Assembly: GCF_003260015.1 (NCBI RefSeq)
Contig: NZ_QCXS01000002.1
Coordinates: 2,542,001-2,606,000, forward strand
Origin: Nakamurella deserti
Lineage (GTDB): Bacteria > Actinomycetota > Actinomycetes > Mycobacteriales > Nakamurellaceae
Length of the DNA stretch: 64,000 nt
Reading direction: 5' to 3'
In this document: piece by piece, positions 13,402 through 35,800 of the stretch
Layout of the letters: each line of letters opens with the position of its first letter
Position numbering within the stretch: the first letter of the stretch is position 1
The notes under the pieces: generated by a model
Seen by the model: the letters and a program-made list of their open reading frames with translations, nothing else
Databases searched by the model: none
Told to the model about the DNA's origin: nothing
Translations under genes and position numbers: made by a program

Positions 13402-14283
13402 TCATCCGATCCAGTCGTCGAACCGCAGTCCGGAGATCTGCTCGTAGGCGGCCACGTACCGCTCCCGGGTCACGCGCGTCACCTCGTCGGGCAGCGGCGG
13501 CGGCGGGGTGTCGGTCGCCCGGTCCCACCCGGAGTCGGCCGAGGTCAGCCAGTCCCGCACGTACTGCTTGTCGAACGACGGCTGGACGCGCCCCTCCCGG
13601 TACCGGTCGGCCGGCCAGAAGCGCGACGAGTCCGGGGTCAGCACCTCGTCCCCGAGGACCAGGGCACCGTCGCGGTGGCCGAACTCGAACTTGGTGTCGG
13701 CCAGGATGATGCCGCGGCCGGCGGCGTGGTCGGCGGCGGTGGCGTAGATGCGCAGCGTGGTGTCGCGCAGCTCCGTGGCGAGGTCGGGGCCGACCTGCGC
13801 CGCGACCACCTCGAAGCTGACGTTCTCGTCGTGGTCGCCGAGGTCGGCCTTGGTGGCGGGAGTGAAGATCGGCGACGGCAGCTTCGACGACTCGACGAGC
13901 CCGGCGGGCAGGTCCACCCCGCACACCGCCCCGGTGCGCCGGTAGTCGGAGAGACCGGAACCGGTGAGGTATCCGCGGGCGACGCACTCGACGGGCACCA
14001 TGTCCAGCCGCCGGACCAGCATGGCGCGGCCGCGGACGTCGGCCGGGATCCGGGGATCGTCGACCGCGACGACGTGGTGCGCGACGGCCGGCGCCAGCAG
14101 CTCGAACCAGAACATGCTCATCGCGGTGAGGATGCGGCCCTTGTCCGGGATGGGCGTCGGCAACACGTGGTCGTAGGCGCTGATCCGGTCGCTGGCCACC
14201 ATCAGCAGCAGCTCGTCGTCCACGGCGTAGAGGTCGCGGACCTTCCCGGAGGCGATACGGACGAGGTCGTCGACGCTGTTCAC
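13402..14283 (-). CDS. purC: phosphoribosylaminoimidazole-succinocarboxamide synthase
   Basis: Joins aspartate to CAIR with ATP to give SAICAR. The 293 residues have the family pattern: [39 protein letters not shown] at the N-terminus, [17 protein letters not shown], then LADTKFEFG and [14 protein letters not shown] in the C-terminal half. It is monofunctional and of normal length. The start codon is GTG at 14283. It is transcribed alone, with a DUF1905 gene just upstream on the same strand. Confidence 0.97.
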
Positions 14284-29634: not shown

Positions 29635-30480
29635 TCAGGGCGCGACGGCGGCCAGCGCTTCCGCCGCGGCGGCCAGGGTGTCGACGGGGACGGCACCGGC
29701 CGGGTCCGCGGTGAGCACGACGGACCCGTCACGCCCGCTGATCCAGACGGCACCGACCCCGCCGAGCTCGGCTGTCCGCACCCCCGGCCGACCGGGGACG
29801 TCGGTGCACGTCGCGCCGGCCGTCCCGGCGCAGGGGTCGTAGCTGCCGGCCCGTCGCTCGACCACGACCGAGCCGCCGGCCACCGCATAGCGCTGAACCC
29901 CGAGGTCGGCGTCGGCGAGCGCGCAGGAGTCGAGCCGGGTCGCCCCGCCGAGGACGCTCTCCACGGCCTGCAGCTGCGTCTCGTCCAGCGGCGCCGGCCG
30001 GCACGACGTGGTGTCGGCGCTCTCCTGGCCCCCGCCGGCGGACGCGTCGTCCGGCAGCTGTCCCGGTGCGGCGGTGGGCACACCGAACGACCCGGGCACG
30101 GAGGACCCGGCGCTCGGCGCCGCCGCTCCGCCCGAGGACGCGCCCCCCGCCGAGGACGCGGACGACGATCCGGCCGACGGCGCGGCGTTGGCCGCCGCCG
30201 AACTGGACGACGTGGACGCCATCGACGTCGACGCCGCCGAGGTGGCGTCGCCGCCCCGGCCCAGGGTGCTGACGAACAGCACCAGCACGGCGATGGCCGC
30301 GGCCGCCGCGGCGATCCCGCCGAACACCTGCCGGCGCAGCGACCGGCCGTTGTCGAGGTGGTAGCGGATCGTGGACTCGGTGAACCCCGCGGGCGGGGCG
30401 TCCTCGGTCAGCCGGGCCATGGCGGCACCGAGGGGGCCGACGGGTGACGGGCCGTCGAAGGGGTCACGGTCGTGCGTCAT
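29635..30480 (-). CDS. one-helix membrane protein coupled to a SigE-like sigma factor
   Basis: A 281-residue protein with a cytoplasmic N-terminus of about 50 residues, one transmembrane helix (about 53-73, FGGIAAAAAAIAVLVLFVSTLG), then a long Ser/Ala/Gly-rich linker of about 70 residues and an external domain with four cysteines. Its ATG overlaps the sigma-factor stop (ATGA), which is the typical position of an anti-sigma factor, and the topology fits. However, no zinc-finger HxxxCxxC motif is present, so the anti-sigma role is inference from context. Confidence 0.75.
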   Translation of the reverse strand: MTHDRDPFDGPSPVGPLGAAMARLTEDAPPAGFTESTIRYHLDNGRSLRRQVFGGIAAAAAAIAVLVLFVSTLGRGGDATSAASTSMASTSSSSAAANAAPSAGSSSASSAGGASSGGAAAPSAGSSVPGSFGVPTAAPGQLPDDASAGGGQESADTTSCRPAPLDETQLQAVESVLGGATRLDSCALADADLGVQRYAVAGGSVVVERRAGSYDPCAGTAGATCTDVPGRPGVRTAELGGVGAVWISGRDGSVVLTADPAGAVPVDTLAAAAEALAAVAP

Positions 30481-31076
30481 CGCCGCGCCCTCCCCTCGGT
30501 GTCGTCGGTGTCGTCGGTGGACGGTGGGCCGCCGGTGCCCGCCACGTCGTCATCACGCTCGTGCCGCGGCCCGGTGACCCCGAGTGCCTCCACGGCGATC
30601 CGCAGTGCGGCCAGCCCGCGCGCCGTCTGGCTCTTCACGGTGCCCGTGGTGATGCCCATCGCGGCGGCCGTCGACGCGACGTCCATCCCTTCGTAGTAGC
30701 GCAGCACCAGCACCGTGCGTTGCTTGGGCGGGACCTCGGCCAGGGCCGCGCGGAACACCTCGCGATCGGACACCAGCGCCGCGAGGTCGGGCCCGCCGTC
30801 GTCGGCGTTCTCCGGCAGGAACTCGACGACCTTCTCCCGCCGCCACGGCCGCCGGGACTCGTCCACCACCGAGCGCACCAGGCAGGAACGGACGTAGGCG
30901 TCCATCGACGAACGGTCGCGGACCCGGTCCCACGCCCCGTACAGCTTGAGGAACGCCGTCTGGGCCAGGTCGTCGGCCTTGTGCCAGTCGCCGCTCAGCA
31001 GGAAGGCCAGCCGCCGGACGGGATCGCGCCGGACGGCGAAGTACGCCGAGAACTCCTCGTCCCGCGCCGCCGTCAC
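30477..31076 (-). CDS. ECF RNA polymerase sigma factor, SigE-family
   Basis: A 199-residue group-4 sigma factor. Region 2 is EEFSAYFAVRRDPVRRLAFLLSGDWHKADDLAQTAFLKLYGAWDRV, and region 4 is ALAEVPPKQRTVLVLRYYEGMDVASTAAAMGITTGTVKSQTARGL; the DW..ADDLAQ and GTVKSQ signatures define the actinobacterial SigE/SigM-like subfamily. A charged tail of about 30 residues follows. The start is GTG at 31076. It forms an operon with the overlapping membrane protein gene. Confidence 0.9.
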   Translation of the reverse strand: MTAARDEEFSAYFAVRRDPVRRLAFLLSGDWHKADDLAQTAFLKLYGAWDRVRDRSSMDAYVRSCLVRSVVDESRRPWRREKVVEFLPENADDGGPDLAALVSDREVFRAALAEVPPKQRTVLVLRYYEGMDVASTAAAMGITTGTVKSQTARGLAALRIAVEALGVTGPRHERDDDVAGTGGPPSTDDTDDTEGRARR

Positions 31077-31235: not shown

Positions 31236-32072
31236 TCAGGCCGACAACGGAACGGTGATGACCGGGGTGGTGGTCGGCGTCGGTGACCCGCCGGCCGGCT
31301 CCACGGTCACCCCGAGCGCGGTGTCCCCGAGGTGGACGGCGGCCACCGTCTCGGGCATCGATCCGTCGGCGGCGGGGTTCAGGGTCGTCACCGAGCGGGT
31401 CTGGTCGCCGGAGATGACCCAGAGCTGGTACGTCTGGTCCGCGTCCAGGGCCGGCACGTCCGCGAACGACAACAGCGCGCCGCCGCAGCTGGCCGACACC
31501 ACGACGGTGGTGTCGCCGGTGGAACCGGGCGCCGTCGGCAGCTGCTCACGGTCGGCCGCGGTGCTGACGCACCGCTTCAGTGCGTCGGCGTCGTTGTCGG
31601 TGGTGCTGGTCCGGTTGACCAGGAAGAAGGACAACCCGATCAGCGCGATCGCCACCGCTGCGGCGGCGCTGAGCAGCCAGCGGGTCGGCGGCCGGCGCCG
31701 GGACGCCAGGTCGACCACCTCACCGCCCGACCGGTCACCCGCGTCCGCCGGGGCGGCGTCGCGCCACGGACCGTCGCCCCCGCCGGATCCGGCGACGGCG
31801 GAGCCGGTGCCGTCGGCGCCGGCGACGTCGTCGGTCAGCGGCGGCAGCTGCCGGGTGACGGCCACGGCGGCGAGCACCGACGACCGCATCGACGCCGGTG
31901 CCGGCTCGGACGACGCCGCGCCGAGGCGGGCGGCGGTCTCCGCGAAGCCGGACAGCTCGACCTGGCAGGTCGGGCAGTCCTCGAGGTGGCGGCGGAACTG
32001 CGCGGCCTCCAGCTCGTCGAGTGCGTTCAACGCGGCACCGCCGGCGAACAGGGACGGATCGTGCGCCATCAT
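31236..32072 (-). CDS. rskA: anti-sigma-K factor RskA
   Basis: A 278-residue anti-sigma factor. The cytoplasmic N-terminal domain carries the zinc anti-sigma motif HLEDCPTC near residues 29-36 and binds SigK. A single transmembrane helix lies at about 130-150 (RWLLSAAAAVAIALIGLSFFLV), followed by the extracytoplasmic RskA C-terminal domain (GGALLSFADVPALDADQTYQLWVI, GDTALGVTVEPAGGSPTPTTTPVI). Family members release SigK after regulated proteolysis. Its ATG overlaps the sigK stop, so the two proteins are made in a coupled way. Confidence 0.93.
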   Translation of the reverse strand: MMAHDPSLFAGGAALNALDELEAAQFRRHLEDCPTCQVELSGFAETAARLGAASSEPAPASMRSSVLAAVAVTRQLPPLTDDVAGADGTGSAVAGSGGGDGPWRDAAPADAGDRSGGEVVDLASRRRPPTRWLLSAAAAVAIALIGLSFFLVNRTSTTDNDADALKRCVSTAADREQLPTAPGSTGDTTVVVSASCGGALLSFADVPALDADQTYQLWVISGDQTRSVTTLNPAADGSMPETVAAVHLGDTALGVTVEPAGGSPTPTTTPVITVPLSA

Positions 32073-32686
32073 GACGCGACCCCCAGACAGTCACGGAGAC
32101 GGATGAGTCCGTCCCGAAGGCGAGTTTTGACGGTTCCGAGCGGAACCTTGAGTGCGGCTGCCACTTCGGCCTGCGTGTAGCCGGAGTAGTAGGCGAGGTT
32201 GATCGATTCCCGTTGCAGGGCGGTCAGGCCGCCGAGACACCGCTGCACCTGCCGTTTCTCCAGCGAGAGCTCGACGGCGTCGACGACGACGTCCACGTCG
32301 CGTTGGACGGACTGGGTGGCGTACTTCAGGTCCCGGTCGGTCGAGGACTGCTCCGAGCGGACCCGGTCGACGGCGCGGGCGTGGGCCATGGTCATCACCC
32401 AGGACAGCGCCGAGCCGCGAGCCCGGTCGAAGCGGCTGGCCCGGCGCCAGATCTCCAGCATGACCTCCTGGCCGACCTCCTCGGCCTGCGCGGGGTCACG
32501 CAGCACGCGCCGGACGAGTCCGTAGACCCGGGACGACATGAGGTCGTACAGCTGCGCGAACGCCTGCTGGTCGCCCAGGGCCACGGCGGCGAGGAGGTCC
32601 TCGGCCGTGGCTGCGGCCGGCTCGTCGGCCAGGGTCGGCGCCGGGCGTGGGGCGGCCGGACGGGACTGCGGTTCACTCGTGGTCAC
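32069..32686 (-). CDS. sigK: ECF RNA polymerase sigma factor SigK
   Basis: A 205-residue group-4 sigma factor. Region 2: AFAQLYDLMSSRVYGLVRRVLRDPAQAEEVGQEVMLEIWRRASRF with ALSWVMTMAHARAVDRVRSE; region 4: LTALQRESINLAYYSGYTQAEVAAALKVPLGTVKTRLRDGLIRLRD. Both match SigK of mycobacteria. The GTG at 32686 is chosen because GGAAGG lies eight bases upstream; the GTG two codons earlier is too close. The frame is open to 33280, but that stretch is the divergent promoter region. It is paired with rskA and faces a molybdopterin oxidoreductase and a fasciclin gene, which resemble known SigK targets. Confidence 0.92.
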   Translation of the reverse strand: MTTSEPQSRPAAPRPAPTLADEPAAATAEDLLAAVALGDQQAFAQLYDLMSSRVYGLVRRVLRDPAQAEEVGQEVMLEIWRRASRFDRARGSALSWVMTMAHARAVDRVRSEQSSTDRDLKYATQSVQRDVDVVVDAVELSLEKRQVQRCLGGLTALQRESINLAYYSGYTQAEVAAALKVPLGTVKTRLRDGLIRLRDCLGVAS

Positions 32687-33303
32687 GTGCACATCCTTCC
32701 CTGTCCGGAGTCGTCGTGGTCGGGCTACCGCACGATCGGTGGGTGGCGGGGCTGCGACGGCAGGCCGTTCGCCCGGTCCCGCGGCGACGCGGGCACCCGC
32801 CCGGACGCCCCGCGGGTCCGGACCTGTCGCACCGGGGCCGCCGGGGCCGGGATGGGATCCCGGTCGGATCGACCGCGGTGCGGACACCGTGCCGACCCGT
32901 CCTGCGGGTCGGTCGGTTTTCGGAAAGGTGTTCGGCGCGACGGCCCGGGCGGATTGCCGCCGCCGGCCACCGCGATGGCGTCTTCGGACGGTTCCGCATC
33001 CGGCACCCCGGGTGTCGCAGTACAGAGGAGGGGAAGAGGTCGGCGAGACAGGCAGGGCTCGACCTCGCCGGCCCTCGGACGGGCCGGGGCCCACCAGGGT
33101 CGATGCGTTCCACGGGATCGCGAGGCAGACGACTACACGATCCGAAAATGGGCACTGGACTGTCCGGGTAAGCGGTGCGCCGACCGTGTCGTTCCGACGC
33201 GCCGGGGAGGTCACCTTCACCCGTGAGGCGCGGTTGCCGTCACGAACAACACGAATTCGCAACGCCACCCATCCGACCAACGAGCTGTCCCGAATGGACT
33301 CAC
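32687..33303. other. 617-base divergent spacer between sigK and its presumed target
   Basis: No convincing gene is present; frames here lack ribosome sites and third-position bias. The right end (from about 33120) is less GC-rich and carries the SigK-like promoter at 33269-33295. I could not find a CCATCC/CCGAAT pair pointing to sigK itself. Confidence 0.5.
33269..33295 (+). promoter_or_regulatory. candidate SigK promoter (CCATCC N15 CCGAAT)
   Basis: CCATCC at 33269-33274 and CCGAAT at 33290-33295 match the -35 and -10 hexamers reported for mycobacterial SigK. The 15-base spacer is a base or two shorter than I recall for that consensus. The start of transcription would fall near 33302, within two bases of the GTG start at 33304, so the mRNA would be leaderless, and indeed no ribosome site is seen. 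Confidence 0.6.
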
Positions 33304-34920
33304 GTGACCATCGATACGAGAACTCCGGAGGTCCCGAGCACCGGGACCCGCTCGGGAGGCAACGGCATCAACCGTCGGCTCGCCGTGCTGGCCGGCCTCG
33401 TCGCGGTCGGTCTCACCGTCGCGGTGGCCGAGCTGCTGGCGGCGATCGGCTCGTGGGCCGGCGTCACCTCCACGGCCACGTCGTCCTCGCCGCTGTTCGG
33501 GCTGGGATCGACGTTCATCCAGTTCACCCCGGAATGGCTCAAGCACCTGGCCATCCAGATGTTCGGGGTGTACGACAAGGTCGCCCTGAAGACCGGCATG
33601 GGTCTCACCCTCGCGGCCCTCGCGGCGATCCTCGGCCTGCTGGCGCTGCGCACCCTGCGGGTCGCCCAGATCGTCTACGCCGTCCTGGGTCTCGTGGTGG
33701 CGGTGGCGGTGTACAGCCGCTCCGAGGCGTCCCTGGTGGACGTCGTCCCGACCGTGGTCGGGGTCGGTGCCGGGCTCTGGCTGCTGACCCGGATGTTCAC
33801 CGGGGCACCTGCCGGTGCTCCGGAGGCTCCGGCGGAGTCGCAAGGCAGCCGTCGTCGCTTCCTCGCCCTGGCAGGCGGCGGGGCCGGTGCGGCCGTGGTC
33901 GCCGGTGGCCTGTCACGCATCGTCCCGACCTCGGCCGGAGCGGAGAGCTCGCAGCTGCAGGCGGCGAACTCCACCGCCTCCATCGCGGTCGAGAAGATGC
34001 CGGCGCTACCCGCCGGTGCCAGCCTGGACGTCCCCGACATCAGTTCCTTCGTGACGCCCAACGCCGACTTCTACCGCATCGACACGGCTTTCACGGTGCC
34101 GCGGCTCAACGCCGACACCTGGCAGCTGCGCATCCACGGCATGGTCGACAAGGAGATCAGCCTCTCCTACGACGAGCTGCTGGCCCGCCCGCAGCTGGAG
34201 AAGATGATCACCCTGACGTGCGTGTCCAACGAGGTCGGTGGCGACCTGGTCGGCAACGCGGTCTGGCAGGGAACCCTCATCCGTGACCTGTTGGCCGAGG
34301 CCGGCCCGAGCGCCGACGCCGACATGGTGATGTCCCGTTCCGACGACGGTTTCTCGGCCGGCACCCCGCTCTCGGTCCTGACCGACGAGAACCGCGACTC
34401 GATCTTCGCCATCACCATGAACGGGTCCGTGCTGCCCTTCGAGCACGGGTTCCCGGTCCGGATGGTCGTTCCCGGTCTGTACGGGTACGTCTCCGCCACG
34501 AAGTGGGTCACCGAGCTCGAGGTCACCCGCTTCGACCGGCAGACCTCCTACTGGACCGACCGCGGCTGGTCCCCGGAAGGACCCATCAAGACCGCCAGCC
34601 GGATCGACGTTCCCAGGTCGTTCCAGAAGTTCCCGGCCGGCCAGGTCGTGATGGGCGGTGTGGCCTGGGCCCAGCACCGCGGCATCCGGTCCGTCGAGGT
34701 CCAGATCGACGGCGGCGCCTGGGAGATGGCGACGCTGTCCACCGAGGTCACCACCGATACCTGGCGTCAGTGGACCTACGTGTGGGACGCCACACCGGGT
34801 TCGCACAACGTCGCGTGCCGGGCGACCGATTCCACCGGAGCAGTCCAGGACTCGGCCATCCGCACCCCCATACCGGACGGTTCCACCGGCTACGACTCCA
34901 CGGCCTTCACGGTCGAGTAG
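33304..34920 (+). CDS. membrane-anchored molybdopterin-dependent oxidoreductase (sulfite-oxidase family)
   Basis: A 538-residue enzyme. Residues 1-180 contain about four hydrophobic helices. At 182-187 comes a twin-arginine motif SRRRFL followed by a last hydrophobic segment, so the catalytic part should be sent across by Tat after Sec inserts the first helices, as described for Streptomyces Sco3746-type proteins. The external part has the molybdopterin domain with the likely molybdenum ligand Cys306 in [25 protein letters not shown] and a C-terminal dimerisation domain ([13 protein letters not shown]...[20 protein letters not shown]). The substrate may be sulfite or an oxidised sulfur group. 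A SigK-like promoter stands just upstream, and a fasciclin gene follows after 106 bases. Confidence 0.88.
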
Positions 34921-35026
34921 CCGACAGCGCCGTCCCGCTCCACCCACCCGCAGTTCCCTTCTCCACCCACGGTTCCCACCCCGGGGTGCGCGACAGCGTG
35001 CCCCGACACCCAGAAAGGCTCCATCC

Positions 35027-35800
35027 ATGTTCTCCAAGCGCGCTTCCCTGATCGCCGTCACCGCGGCCGGTCTCGCTCTGCTCGGTGCCTGCGGCAGCAA
35101 CGCCGACAACGCCGCGTCCAGCGTCTCCTCCGCCGCCTCCAGCGTGTCCTCCAGCGCGATGAGCTCCACCACGAGCCCGTCGTCGAGCTCCTCGTCCTCG
35201 ATGAGCTCGAGCTCCGCCCCGTCGTCGTCGATGGAGTCCTCGATGGAGTCGTCGGCGCCGATGGAGTCCTCCTCGATGGAGTCCACCGGAGCGATGGGTG
35301 CCTCCACCCTGGTCGGTGCGGGCTGTGCCGCCTACGCCGAGGCCGTCCCGACCGGCGCCGGCTCCGTCGAGGGCATGGCCGCCGACCCGGTCGCCACCGC
35401 CGCGTCGAACAACCCGCTGCTGACCACGCTCGTCAAGGCCGTCTCCGGCCAGGTCAACCCCCAGGTCAACCTGGTCAGCACCCTCAACGGCGACGAGTTC
35501 ACCGTGTTCGCCCCGGTCGACGAGGCCTTCGCCAAGGTCGACGCCGCCACCATGACGACGCTGACCACCGACGCCGATCTGCTCACCAAGATCCTGACCT
35601 ACCACGTCGTGCCCGGCCAGATCGCCCCCGACGCCATCGTCGGCACCCACACGACCGTCGAGGGCCAGGACCTGACCGTCGAGGGCTCGGGCGACGACCT
35701 GACCGTCAACGGCAACGCCGCGGTCATCTGCGGTGGCGTCAAGACCGCCAACGCGACCGTCTACCTGATCGACACCGTTCTGACCCCGCCGGCTTCCTGA
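35027..35800 (+). CDS. fasciclin-domain lipoprotein with Met/Ser/Glu-rich stalk (MPT83/MPT70-like)
   Basis: A 257-residue surface lipoprotein. A signal with lipobox LGAC (Cys22) is followed by a low-complexity stalk (about 24-92) of Ser, Ala, Met and Glu in which seven methionines fall between residues 45 and 90, mostly as SMES units; the DNA there repeats GATGGAGTC. Residues 110-255 form a fasciclin domain ([57 protein letters not shown]). Fasciclin proteins MPT70/MPT83 are SigK targets in mycobacteria. An AAAGG site precedes the ATG. A strong terminator follows. It is probably co-transcribed with the oxidoreductase. Confidence 0.9.

Follow-up and report, generated by a model that had tools for sequence, protein, structure and literature searches.

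We analyzed a 64,000-nucleotide (nt) stretch of the genome of the actinomycete Nakamurella deserti (contig NZ_QCXS01000002.1, positions 2,542,001 to 2,606,000; hereafter the window). In it, sigK and rskA, the genes for an extracytoplasmic function (ECF) sigma factor and its membrane anti-sigma factor, lie divergent from the genes for a membrane-anchored molybdoenzyme of the sulfite oxidase (SUOX) fold and a fasciclin lipoprotein. What is new here, judged from the sequence, is the linked molybdoenzyme with its own predicted leaderless SigK-type promoter, the preferred promoter spacer of 15 nt, and the methionine bias of the lipoprotein stalk. The sigK-rskA pair, the enzyme gene, and the fasciclin gene very probably form one regulon. 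We further propose, at a probability of roughly one in three for the whole chain, that the locus could be a SigK-RskA controlled envelope redox cassette in which stalk methionines serve as an oxidation sink and the enzyme repairs the sulfoxides. A first-pass annotation of this DNA had described divergent sigK-rskA genes together with a polytopic molybdoenzyme of the twin-arginine translocation (Tat) type and a fasciclin lipoprotein, and family scans confirmed this description. The range it had assigned, 32069..35800, contains the cassette apart from rskA, which falls outside its start.

The rskA product scored 83.1 bits against the RskA_C domain PF10099 (cut-off 29.4), 24.5 bits against zf-HC2 (cut-off 22.2), and 155.2 bits against the NCBIfam model NF052375 (cut-off 100); the RskA_N model stayed below its cut-off (18.9 bits vs. 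27). With RskA_C and an N-terminal domain of the zinc-finger type both above their cut-offs, the protein is an RskA. The sigK product scored 281.7 bits against the NCBIfam SigK model NF007228 (cut-off 226). M. tuberculosis SigK has conserved cysteines at positions 133 and 183, according to the accessible part of PMC7509140; by inspection, the C-terminal half of the product encoded in the window also holds two cysteines, the positions of the two proteins not having been aligned. The fasciclin lipoprotein has the lipobox LLGAC at C22, and no other protein of the genome matches PF02469. Its best solved structure was MPT70 (1nyo, E = 2.9e-57, residues 95-256), and with an MPT70-type N-terminal part and a lipobox it is a protein of the MPT70/MPT83 type. 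MPT70 and MPT83 are known antigens, the function of which is, to our knowledge, unsettled. PF00174 has two matches in the genome, the enzyme and a 203-amino acid open reading frame (ORF) with no evident export signal by inspection. The sigK and enzyme genes are approximately 0.6 kb apart, and 106 nt separate the enzyme gene from the fasciclin gene downstream. Because the divergent genes are this close and the linkage recurs elsewhere, the arrangement is not due to chance.

Linkage was determined in two sets of genomes. Set 1 comprised 61 genomes (that of the window, its genus, and its order) with fasciclin hits at E values up to 1e-20, and yielded 41 loci including the window; the second loci of genomes G022 and G047 and the G060 hit were left out. 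Enzyme and fasciclin genes were both present in 27/41 loci, 15 of which also had sigK. The genes occurred in four orders: sigK-rskA divergent from enzyme-fasciclin; fasciclin-sigK-rskA-enzyme; sigK-rskA-fasciclin-enzyme; and enzyme-fasciclin-sigK-rskA. Set 2, which was held out, came from a class-wide draw of 197 genomes, 87 with a fasciclin match, from which 88 regions were taken. It was made up of full-length hits at E values to about 1e-17 in genomes outside set 1, with partial or weaker hits (e.g., G156, G107, and G136) omitted. An enzyme gene was found within 5 kb of 51 of the 92 fasciclin genes in set 2, sigK within 6 kb of 43, and both near 31. From the side of the enzyme, 544 relatives were found in named genomes, and the best 80 of these were examined, some with flanks cut by contig ends. 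Only 7 of the 80 had a fasciclin gene in their flanks and 73 had none, indicating that the enzyme family is wider than the cassette. In the enzyme tree, Nakamurella aerolata (L052) grouped among the genus of the window.

We searched the window for CCATCC and CCGAAT, which we take to be the SigK consensus, separated by 13 to 20 nt. A single perfect site was present, with a spacer of 15 nt and upstream of the enzyme gene (Table 1), compared to 0.05 expected from shuffles; no other copy in the genome is perfect at this spacer. With 1 mismatch allowed, neither sigK nor the fasciclin gene in the window was preceded by a further site, and no terminator-like site was found between the enzyme and fasciclin genes there. 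Read-through from the enzyme promoter is, therefore, the simplest reading and probably covers the fasciclin gene in the window. At the same stringency the whole genome has 23 SigK-like sites with spacer 15, compared to 1 for the reversed pattern, and one of them lies at positions 738-764 of the window. Some SigK-like sites end 3-7 nt before possible start codons and mark candidate further targets, among them, by inspection, a hydrolase-like gene (L219) and a CtaA-like gene (L212).

For spacer counts, sites with at most 1 mismatch and spacers of 10 to 22 nt were scored. In the 48 cassette loci of set 1 (around fasciclin genes: the window, 40 loci from relatives, and 7 from named genomes), spacer 15 had 44 sites and every other spacer 2-7; in the 88 held-out loci, spacer 15 had 55 sites and the others 1-8. 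The enrichment was thus approximately 9-fold and 14-fold, respectively. Gene by gene, 30 of 111 cassette upstream regions in set 1 had a site. With 191 shuffled hexamer pairs as the control the mean was 1.08, one pair reaching 20 and the next best 5. Of the 88 held-out loci, 33 had one or more sites at a cassette gene. With both sets taken together, 18/88 enzyme ORFs had a site and an in-frame start, the first such start lying 6, 7, and 8 nt past the -10 hexamer in 1, 15, and 2 cases, respectively. Sites were also present at 34/142 fasciclin ORFs, with at least 34 nt to the start in 29/34, and at 12/63 sigK ORFs, with 5-8 nt to the start in 5/12. These distances predict an enzyme message with no leader and, in most cases, a fasciclin message that has one. 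The single regulon suggested by the first-pass annotation is supported by the predicted enzyme promoter, by spacer 15 in two sets, and by linkage that is kept despite changed gene order. Enzymes without a linked fasciclin gene differed: a site was found at 1/28 in 20 genomes (two loci, L133 and L345, being partial and hardly testable) and at 5/73 of the best relatives, the L018 site being perfect. SigK control persisting in trans at unlinked enzymes was, therefore, rejected as a rule.

The stalk of the lipoprotein contains the seven methionines that had been noticed between residues 45 and 90, at residues 45, 59, 69, 73, 79, 84, and 90 (gaps of 14, 10, 4, 6, 5, and 6). We compared methionine with leucine, isoleucine, valine, and phenylalanine (LIVF) in the stalks of homologues, dropping those with no measurable lipobox stalk (10/92 in set 2; 3/50 in set 1, namely one L162 copy, L185, and L186). 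The L151 stalk begins a few residues early, which inflates its LIVF count, and the L302 stalk was re-trimmed for the composition count, having at least 2 methionines either way. Met:LIVF was 97:12 in the genus (13 stalks with 3 to 13 Met each), 57:5 in set 1 outside the genus (34 stalks, 0 to 4 Met), and 150:32 in set 2 (81 stalks, 0 to 7 Met). The total of 304:49 contrasts with 12:140 in 41 similarly composed lipoprotein linkers that served as controls and came from the loci analyzed. Stalks with at least 2 Met numbered 13/13, 22/34, and 40/81 in the three groups, respectively. Within the genus, the first 40 linker residues held at least 2 Met in 10/10 fasciclin proteins (one filter) and in 3/18 other Ser/Ala-rich linkers, a sample biased towards Met stalks by the choice of 11 loci for stalk resemblance. 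The first-pass annotation had looked to conservation of these methionines in homologues. The bias was indeed kept across both sets; the number of methionines was not, varying from 0 to 13, and the bias was weaker outside the genus. Ser/Ala linkers with Met also occurred in other lipoproteins of the genus, at L191, L194, and L197, the L194 protein also having M..HH motifs.

Methionines at such intervals could also mean that the stalk is a binding site for a soft metal such as Cu(I), the cassette then being a metal-redox system. Regular spacing of Met every 4-6 residues in several stalks and the Met-rich L194 lipoprotein with its M..HH motifs would agree with metal binding. However, the stalk in the window has no MxM or MxxM motif, and none of the 14 recurrent neighbor clusters listed for the cassette loci was recognised as a copper gene, making this explanation very unlikely.

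In the redox cassette that we propose, oxidising stress in the envelope would cause RskA to release SigK, and the released SigK would transcribe the enzyme and lipoprotein genes together, both products being predicted to end up on the outside of the membrane. The flexible stalk, biased towards methionine and nearly free of other aliphatic residues, would offer methionines for oxidation. In the most speculative step, the SUOX-fold enzyme would act as a reductase on oxidised methionines of the stalk and of further envelope proteins, the role proposed for MsrP towards MrpX or BcrX. These genes are often linked in related actinobacteria; that the enzyme repairs oxidised stalk methionines is a guess so far. 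As for the signal, the part of PMC9861118 available to us calls the SigK stimuli obscure. The same source reports that mpk83 and mpk70, the M. kansasii homologues of mpt83 and mpt70, are induced by light and that dipZ, located between them, is not light-regulated. Light induction in M. kansasii would fit a photo-oxidative signal.

Several results, concerning the signal, the promoters, the stalk, and the enzyme, weigh against this proposal. An accessible passage of PMC9909702 contrasts vanoxerine with 2B8, which likewise acts on membrane energetics and is described there as impacting cellular energetics, in a way implying that 2B8 induces the sigK regulon. The signal, therefore, need not be oxidative, and because of this source we lowered our estimate of an envelope-oxidation role for the cassette from an even chance to slightly below even. 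No site with at most 1 mismatch was found at any cassette gene in 55/88 held-out loci, and the gene and locus counts given above indicate that most cassette genes have no site of their own at this stringency. A smaller spacer-15 peak was also present in the 73 loci of unlinked enzymes (13 sites vs. 2-7 for other spacers). When 37 linked and 73 unlinked enzymes were compared, those of 420 amino acids or fewer being left out, the two groups showed no difference at columns with at least 70% conservation in each, and thus gave no sign of an enzyme specialised for the lipoprotein.

The stalk methionines also failed to follow the enzyme. In set 1, at least 2 stalk methionines were present in 31/34 enzyme-linked compared to 4/13 unlinked fasciclins, and outside the genus in 20/23 compared to 2/11 (Fisher p = 1.8e-4), independent pairs being very few (median p of 0.5 and 1). 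The test of this association, which was fixed before set 2, failed there, with 26/51 linked vs. 15/31 unlinked (p = 0.5); no identical stalk or fasciclin domain was shared between the two sets. The held-out failure indicates that the methionine bias belongs to the fasciclin family as such and does not mark the presence of a linked enzyme. Likewise, Met-rich ORFs were not in excess around unlinked enzymes (11/2619 near vs. 16/3950 far), and many of those counted look like antisense noise. Alternatively, then, the stalk could be a flexible Ser/Ala/Met linker that drifts in a GC-rich genome and has no redox meaning, with the enzyme acting elsewhere. Such drift is consistent with a Met number ranging from 0 to 13 between homologues, with the missing tie to enzyme adjacency in set 2, and with the Ser-Met linkers sometimes present in other lipoproteins of the genus (the 3/18 from the biased sample). 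It does not agree with a composition in which Met is enriched and LIVF nearly absent in both sets, opposite to the control linkers, or with genus stalks of 3 to 13 Met, several of them in regular units, and we consider drift improbable.

The enzyme begins with a hydrophobic N-terminal domain, followed by a 12-residue twin-arginine stretch at residues 182-193 and then the molybdopterin domain. R183 and R184 were at least 95% conserved in the 110 sequences of the linked and unlinked groups. The hydropathy profile agrees with a layout of four segments N-terminal to the twin arginine and a fifth one behind it (residues 186-204); the windows overlap, and the topology is a prediction. No column with 30% or more histidine occurred before residue 278 in the 110 sequences. 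Profile scores were 106.5 bits for SorA, 105.2 for SoxC, 75.2 for SorT, and 46.6 for MsrP, placing the enzyme nearer to SorA and SoxC than to MsrP. All NCBIfam cut-offs were missed (207 for the MsrP model NF003767; 600 and 420 for SorA and SoxC), so the enzyme can be filed under neither MsrP nor the sulfite dehydrogenases. All 44 sequences of an alignment of the window protein with 43 of the 80 relatives matched all four models, and among solved structures the profile of this alignment scored 125.7 bits against SorA and 53.9 bits against 1xdq, which we take to be E. coli YedY/MsrP. The PF03404 dimerisation domain gave no match in the window protein at E 0.01, with matches in 8 of the 44 aligned sequences at the same threshold, and a C-terminal PF17957 match reached 20.1 bits, under the cut-off of 24.1. 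The SoxC and SorT models align to residues 517 and 519 of the enzyme, an extent that points to a divergent C-terminal domain, probably of the Ig-like/dimerisation type. The caveat of the first-pass annotation that a dimerisation domain would argue for ordinary sulfite oxidation stands. None of the 14 neighbor clusters listed was recognised as an MsrQ-type gene, no model search for MsrQ having been made; with neither haem nor MsrQ recognised as an electron source, the sequence leans mildly against an MsrP-like route.

These features raise the possibility that the enzyme is an envelope oxidase or dehydrogenase of sulfite or another small molecule, co-induced with a fasciclin protein whose stalk is not its substrate. 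Sulfite dehydrogenases and oxidases give the best matches among profiles and PDB structures, the C-terminus is of the dimerisation type, R258 coincides with SorA R55 or is adjacent to it, according to which alignment is used, and the family is common without a fasciclin gene (73 of the best 80 of 544 relatives). However, the motif around Cys306, CVSN..GG, was invariant in 44/44 aligned sequences, where SorA has CSGNSR. The arginine 5 residues after the molybdenum-ligand cysteine in SorA, presumably a sulfite ligand, is missing from the motif of the enzyme, and none of the 14 neighbor clusters listed was recognised as a gene for cytochrome c. We regard this small-molecule reading as unlikely, though nearly as probable as the full chain proposed above. 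Repair of methionine sulfoxide, an analogy with MsrP, may be the role of the enzyme, but this is also doubtful on its own: the scores closer to sulfite dehydrogenases than to MsrP, the lack of conserved haem histidines, and the failed held-out test leave the sink-and-repair half of the first-pass interpretation a conjecture.

Parts of the cassette have precedents. An mpt83-sigK-rskA cassette of mycobacteria and other bacteria was already published, as stated in the accessible part of PMC7509140, which cites Veyrier 2008. As in that cassette, the window combines sigK, rskA, SigK sites, and a gene for a fasciclin lipoprotein of the MPT83/MPT70 type at a single locus; the difference is a linked molybdoenzyme with a predicted leaderless SigK-type promoter of its own. 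In the portions of the literature available to us, we found no description of this molybdoenzyme as a SigK target; Veyrier 2008 may already contain part of it. In the Brucella BcrS-AbcS system, an ECF sigma factor drives a Met-rich peptide and MsrPQ (BcrXQP) under hypochlorous acid (HOCl), as summarized in the available text of PMC8315932, which cites the Azospira system. Shared with these MrpX/BcrX-MsrPQ systems are an ECF sigma/anti-sigma pair, a Met-rich exported protein, and a SUOX-fold enzyme, the regulon in the window being a prediction from sequence. In contrast, the sigma factor in the window belongs to another group, the methionines are on a lipid-anchored fasciclin protein and not a free peptide, cassette stalks outside the genus are only mildly Met-rich, the enzyme is not an MsrP by sequence, and MsrQ was not recognised, within the limits stated above.

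Compared to SorA and SoxC, its best profile matches, the enzyme has the same order of a molybdenum cofactor (MoCo) domain followed by a probable Ig-like domain of the dimerisation type; unlike them, it lies far below their cut-offs, has another cysteine motif and an added membrane domain, and has no cytochrome subunit recognised beside it among the 14 clusters listed. Polytopic MoCo proteins of the Sco3746 type are inserted by both Sec and Tat, with a topology shown experimentally, according to the accessible part of PMC5449189. The hydropathy of the window enzyme fits the same plan of four transmembrane segments, a twin arginine, a further segment, and a predicted exported MoCo domain. However, relatives of Sco3746 have conserved histidines for b haems in transmembrane segments 2-4, and the family of the window enzyme has no conserved histidine there. 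Certain secreted enzymes carry fasciclin and molybdopterin-dependent oxidoreductase domains in one polypeptide, as mentioned in an excerpt of PMC1949818. Such fusions support a functional link between the two proteins; compared by description only, they combine in a single polypeptide the two domain types that the window has as two genes with sigK-rskA.

The mpt83 and mpt70 genes of M. tuberculosis and M. kansasii lie on either side of dipZ, as described in the accessible part of PMC9861118. At L264 (4468-7717, genome G138), a gene of the DipZ type with DsbD_TM and thioredoxin-like domains likewise lies between two fasciclin genes, and G138 had no enzyme match at E 1e-60. Together with the published mpt83-dipZ-mpt70 triad, this arrangement in one genome suggests that the fasciclin lipoprotein may have alternative redox partners. 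The boldest form of our proposal would have SigK switch on a methionine-oxidation sink and repair module, with the haem-less membrane-anchored SUOX-fold enzyme as an extracytoplasmic methionine sulfoxide reductase of a new class, in convergence with MrpX-MsrPQ, and with DipZ replacing the enzyme as the redox partner of MPT83/MPT70 in slow-growing mycobacteria; we think it improbable. Whatever its reaction, a linked molybdoenzyme with a predicted SigK promoter gives the cassette a biochemical partner that is testable in harmless actinobacteria, and a common actinobacterial molybdoenzyme family that is named by no curated NCBIfam model used here would be placed in a defined stress regulon.

Table 1. 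Features of the sigK-rskA, molybdoenzyme, and fasciclin locus (positions in the window)
Feature	Position	Strand	Basis or remark
rskA, membrane anti-sigma-K factor, 278 aa	31236..32072	-	PF10099, zf-HC2, NF052375
sigK, ECF sigma factor	32069..32686	-	NF007228; probable GTG start at 32686
SigK-type promoter (predicted), CCATCC-N15-CCGAAT	33269..33295	+	ends 8 nt before enzyme GTG
Membrane-anchored SUOX-fold molybdoenzyme, 538 aa	33304..34920	+	PF00174, 149.1 bits
Twin-arginine motif and hydrophobic segment, residues 183-204	33850..33915	+	RR conservation, hydropathy
Molybdopterin-binding domain with Cys306 in CVSN..GG	34093..34551	+	PF00174, residues 264-416
Probable C-terminal Ig-like/divergent dimerisation-type domain, approximate bounds	34573..34860	+	SoxC/SorT model extents
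MPT70/MPT83-type fasciclin lipoprotein, 257 aa	35027..35800	+	PF02469, 1nyo match
Ser/Met-rich stalk, residues 45-90, seven Met	35159..35296	+	sequence
Fasciclin domain, residues 132-254	35420..35788	+	PF02469, 93.6 bits

Neighbors of the cassette were compared in 34 loci, and the most frequent of the 14 recurrent clusters listed occurred in only 5/34. The top two, a second sigma-like gene and an MMPL-like gene (5/34 loci each), were thus rejected as further widely spread partners. The second sigma-like gene (199 amino acids, 30477-31076) lies beside sigK-rskA in the window, in a region (29635-31076, minus strand) that also encodes a probable membrane protein of 281 amino acids, and it recurs next to the cassette in 5 loci of the genus (the window, L148, L153, L156, and L159). 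Genes that by inspection encode MMPL-like membrane proteins were located within 5 kb of the cassette in five loci from different families (L150, L176, L179, L183, and L184). Fasciclin genes of family f7 lie, by inspection, beside dxr-like genes, genes like that of the Rip1-type site-2 protease, and gcpE-like genes at L162, L163, L243, L264, and L274; Rip1 is the protease that processes RskA, according to the available part of PMC10449499. Tandem two-domain fasciclin proteins were encoded at L150 (9337-10623) and L154 (8832-10325), the latter with a GAMTS repeat linker between its domains. Approximately 2 kb from an unlinked enzyme at L064, a lipoprotein with repeats of the MDDES type and no Pfam match (13605-14108) is encoded adjacent to a histidine kinase gene.

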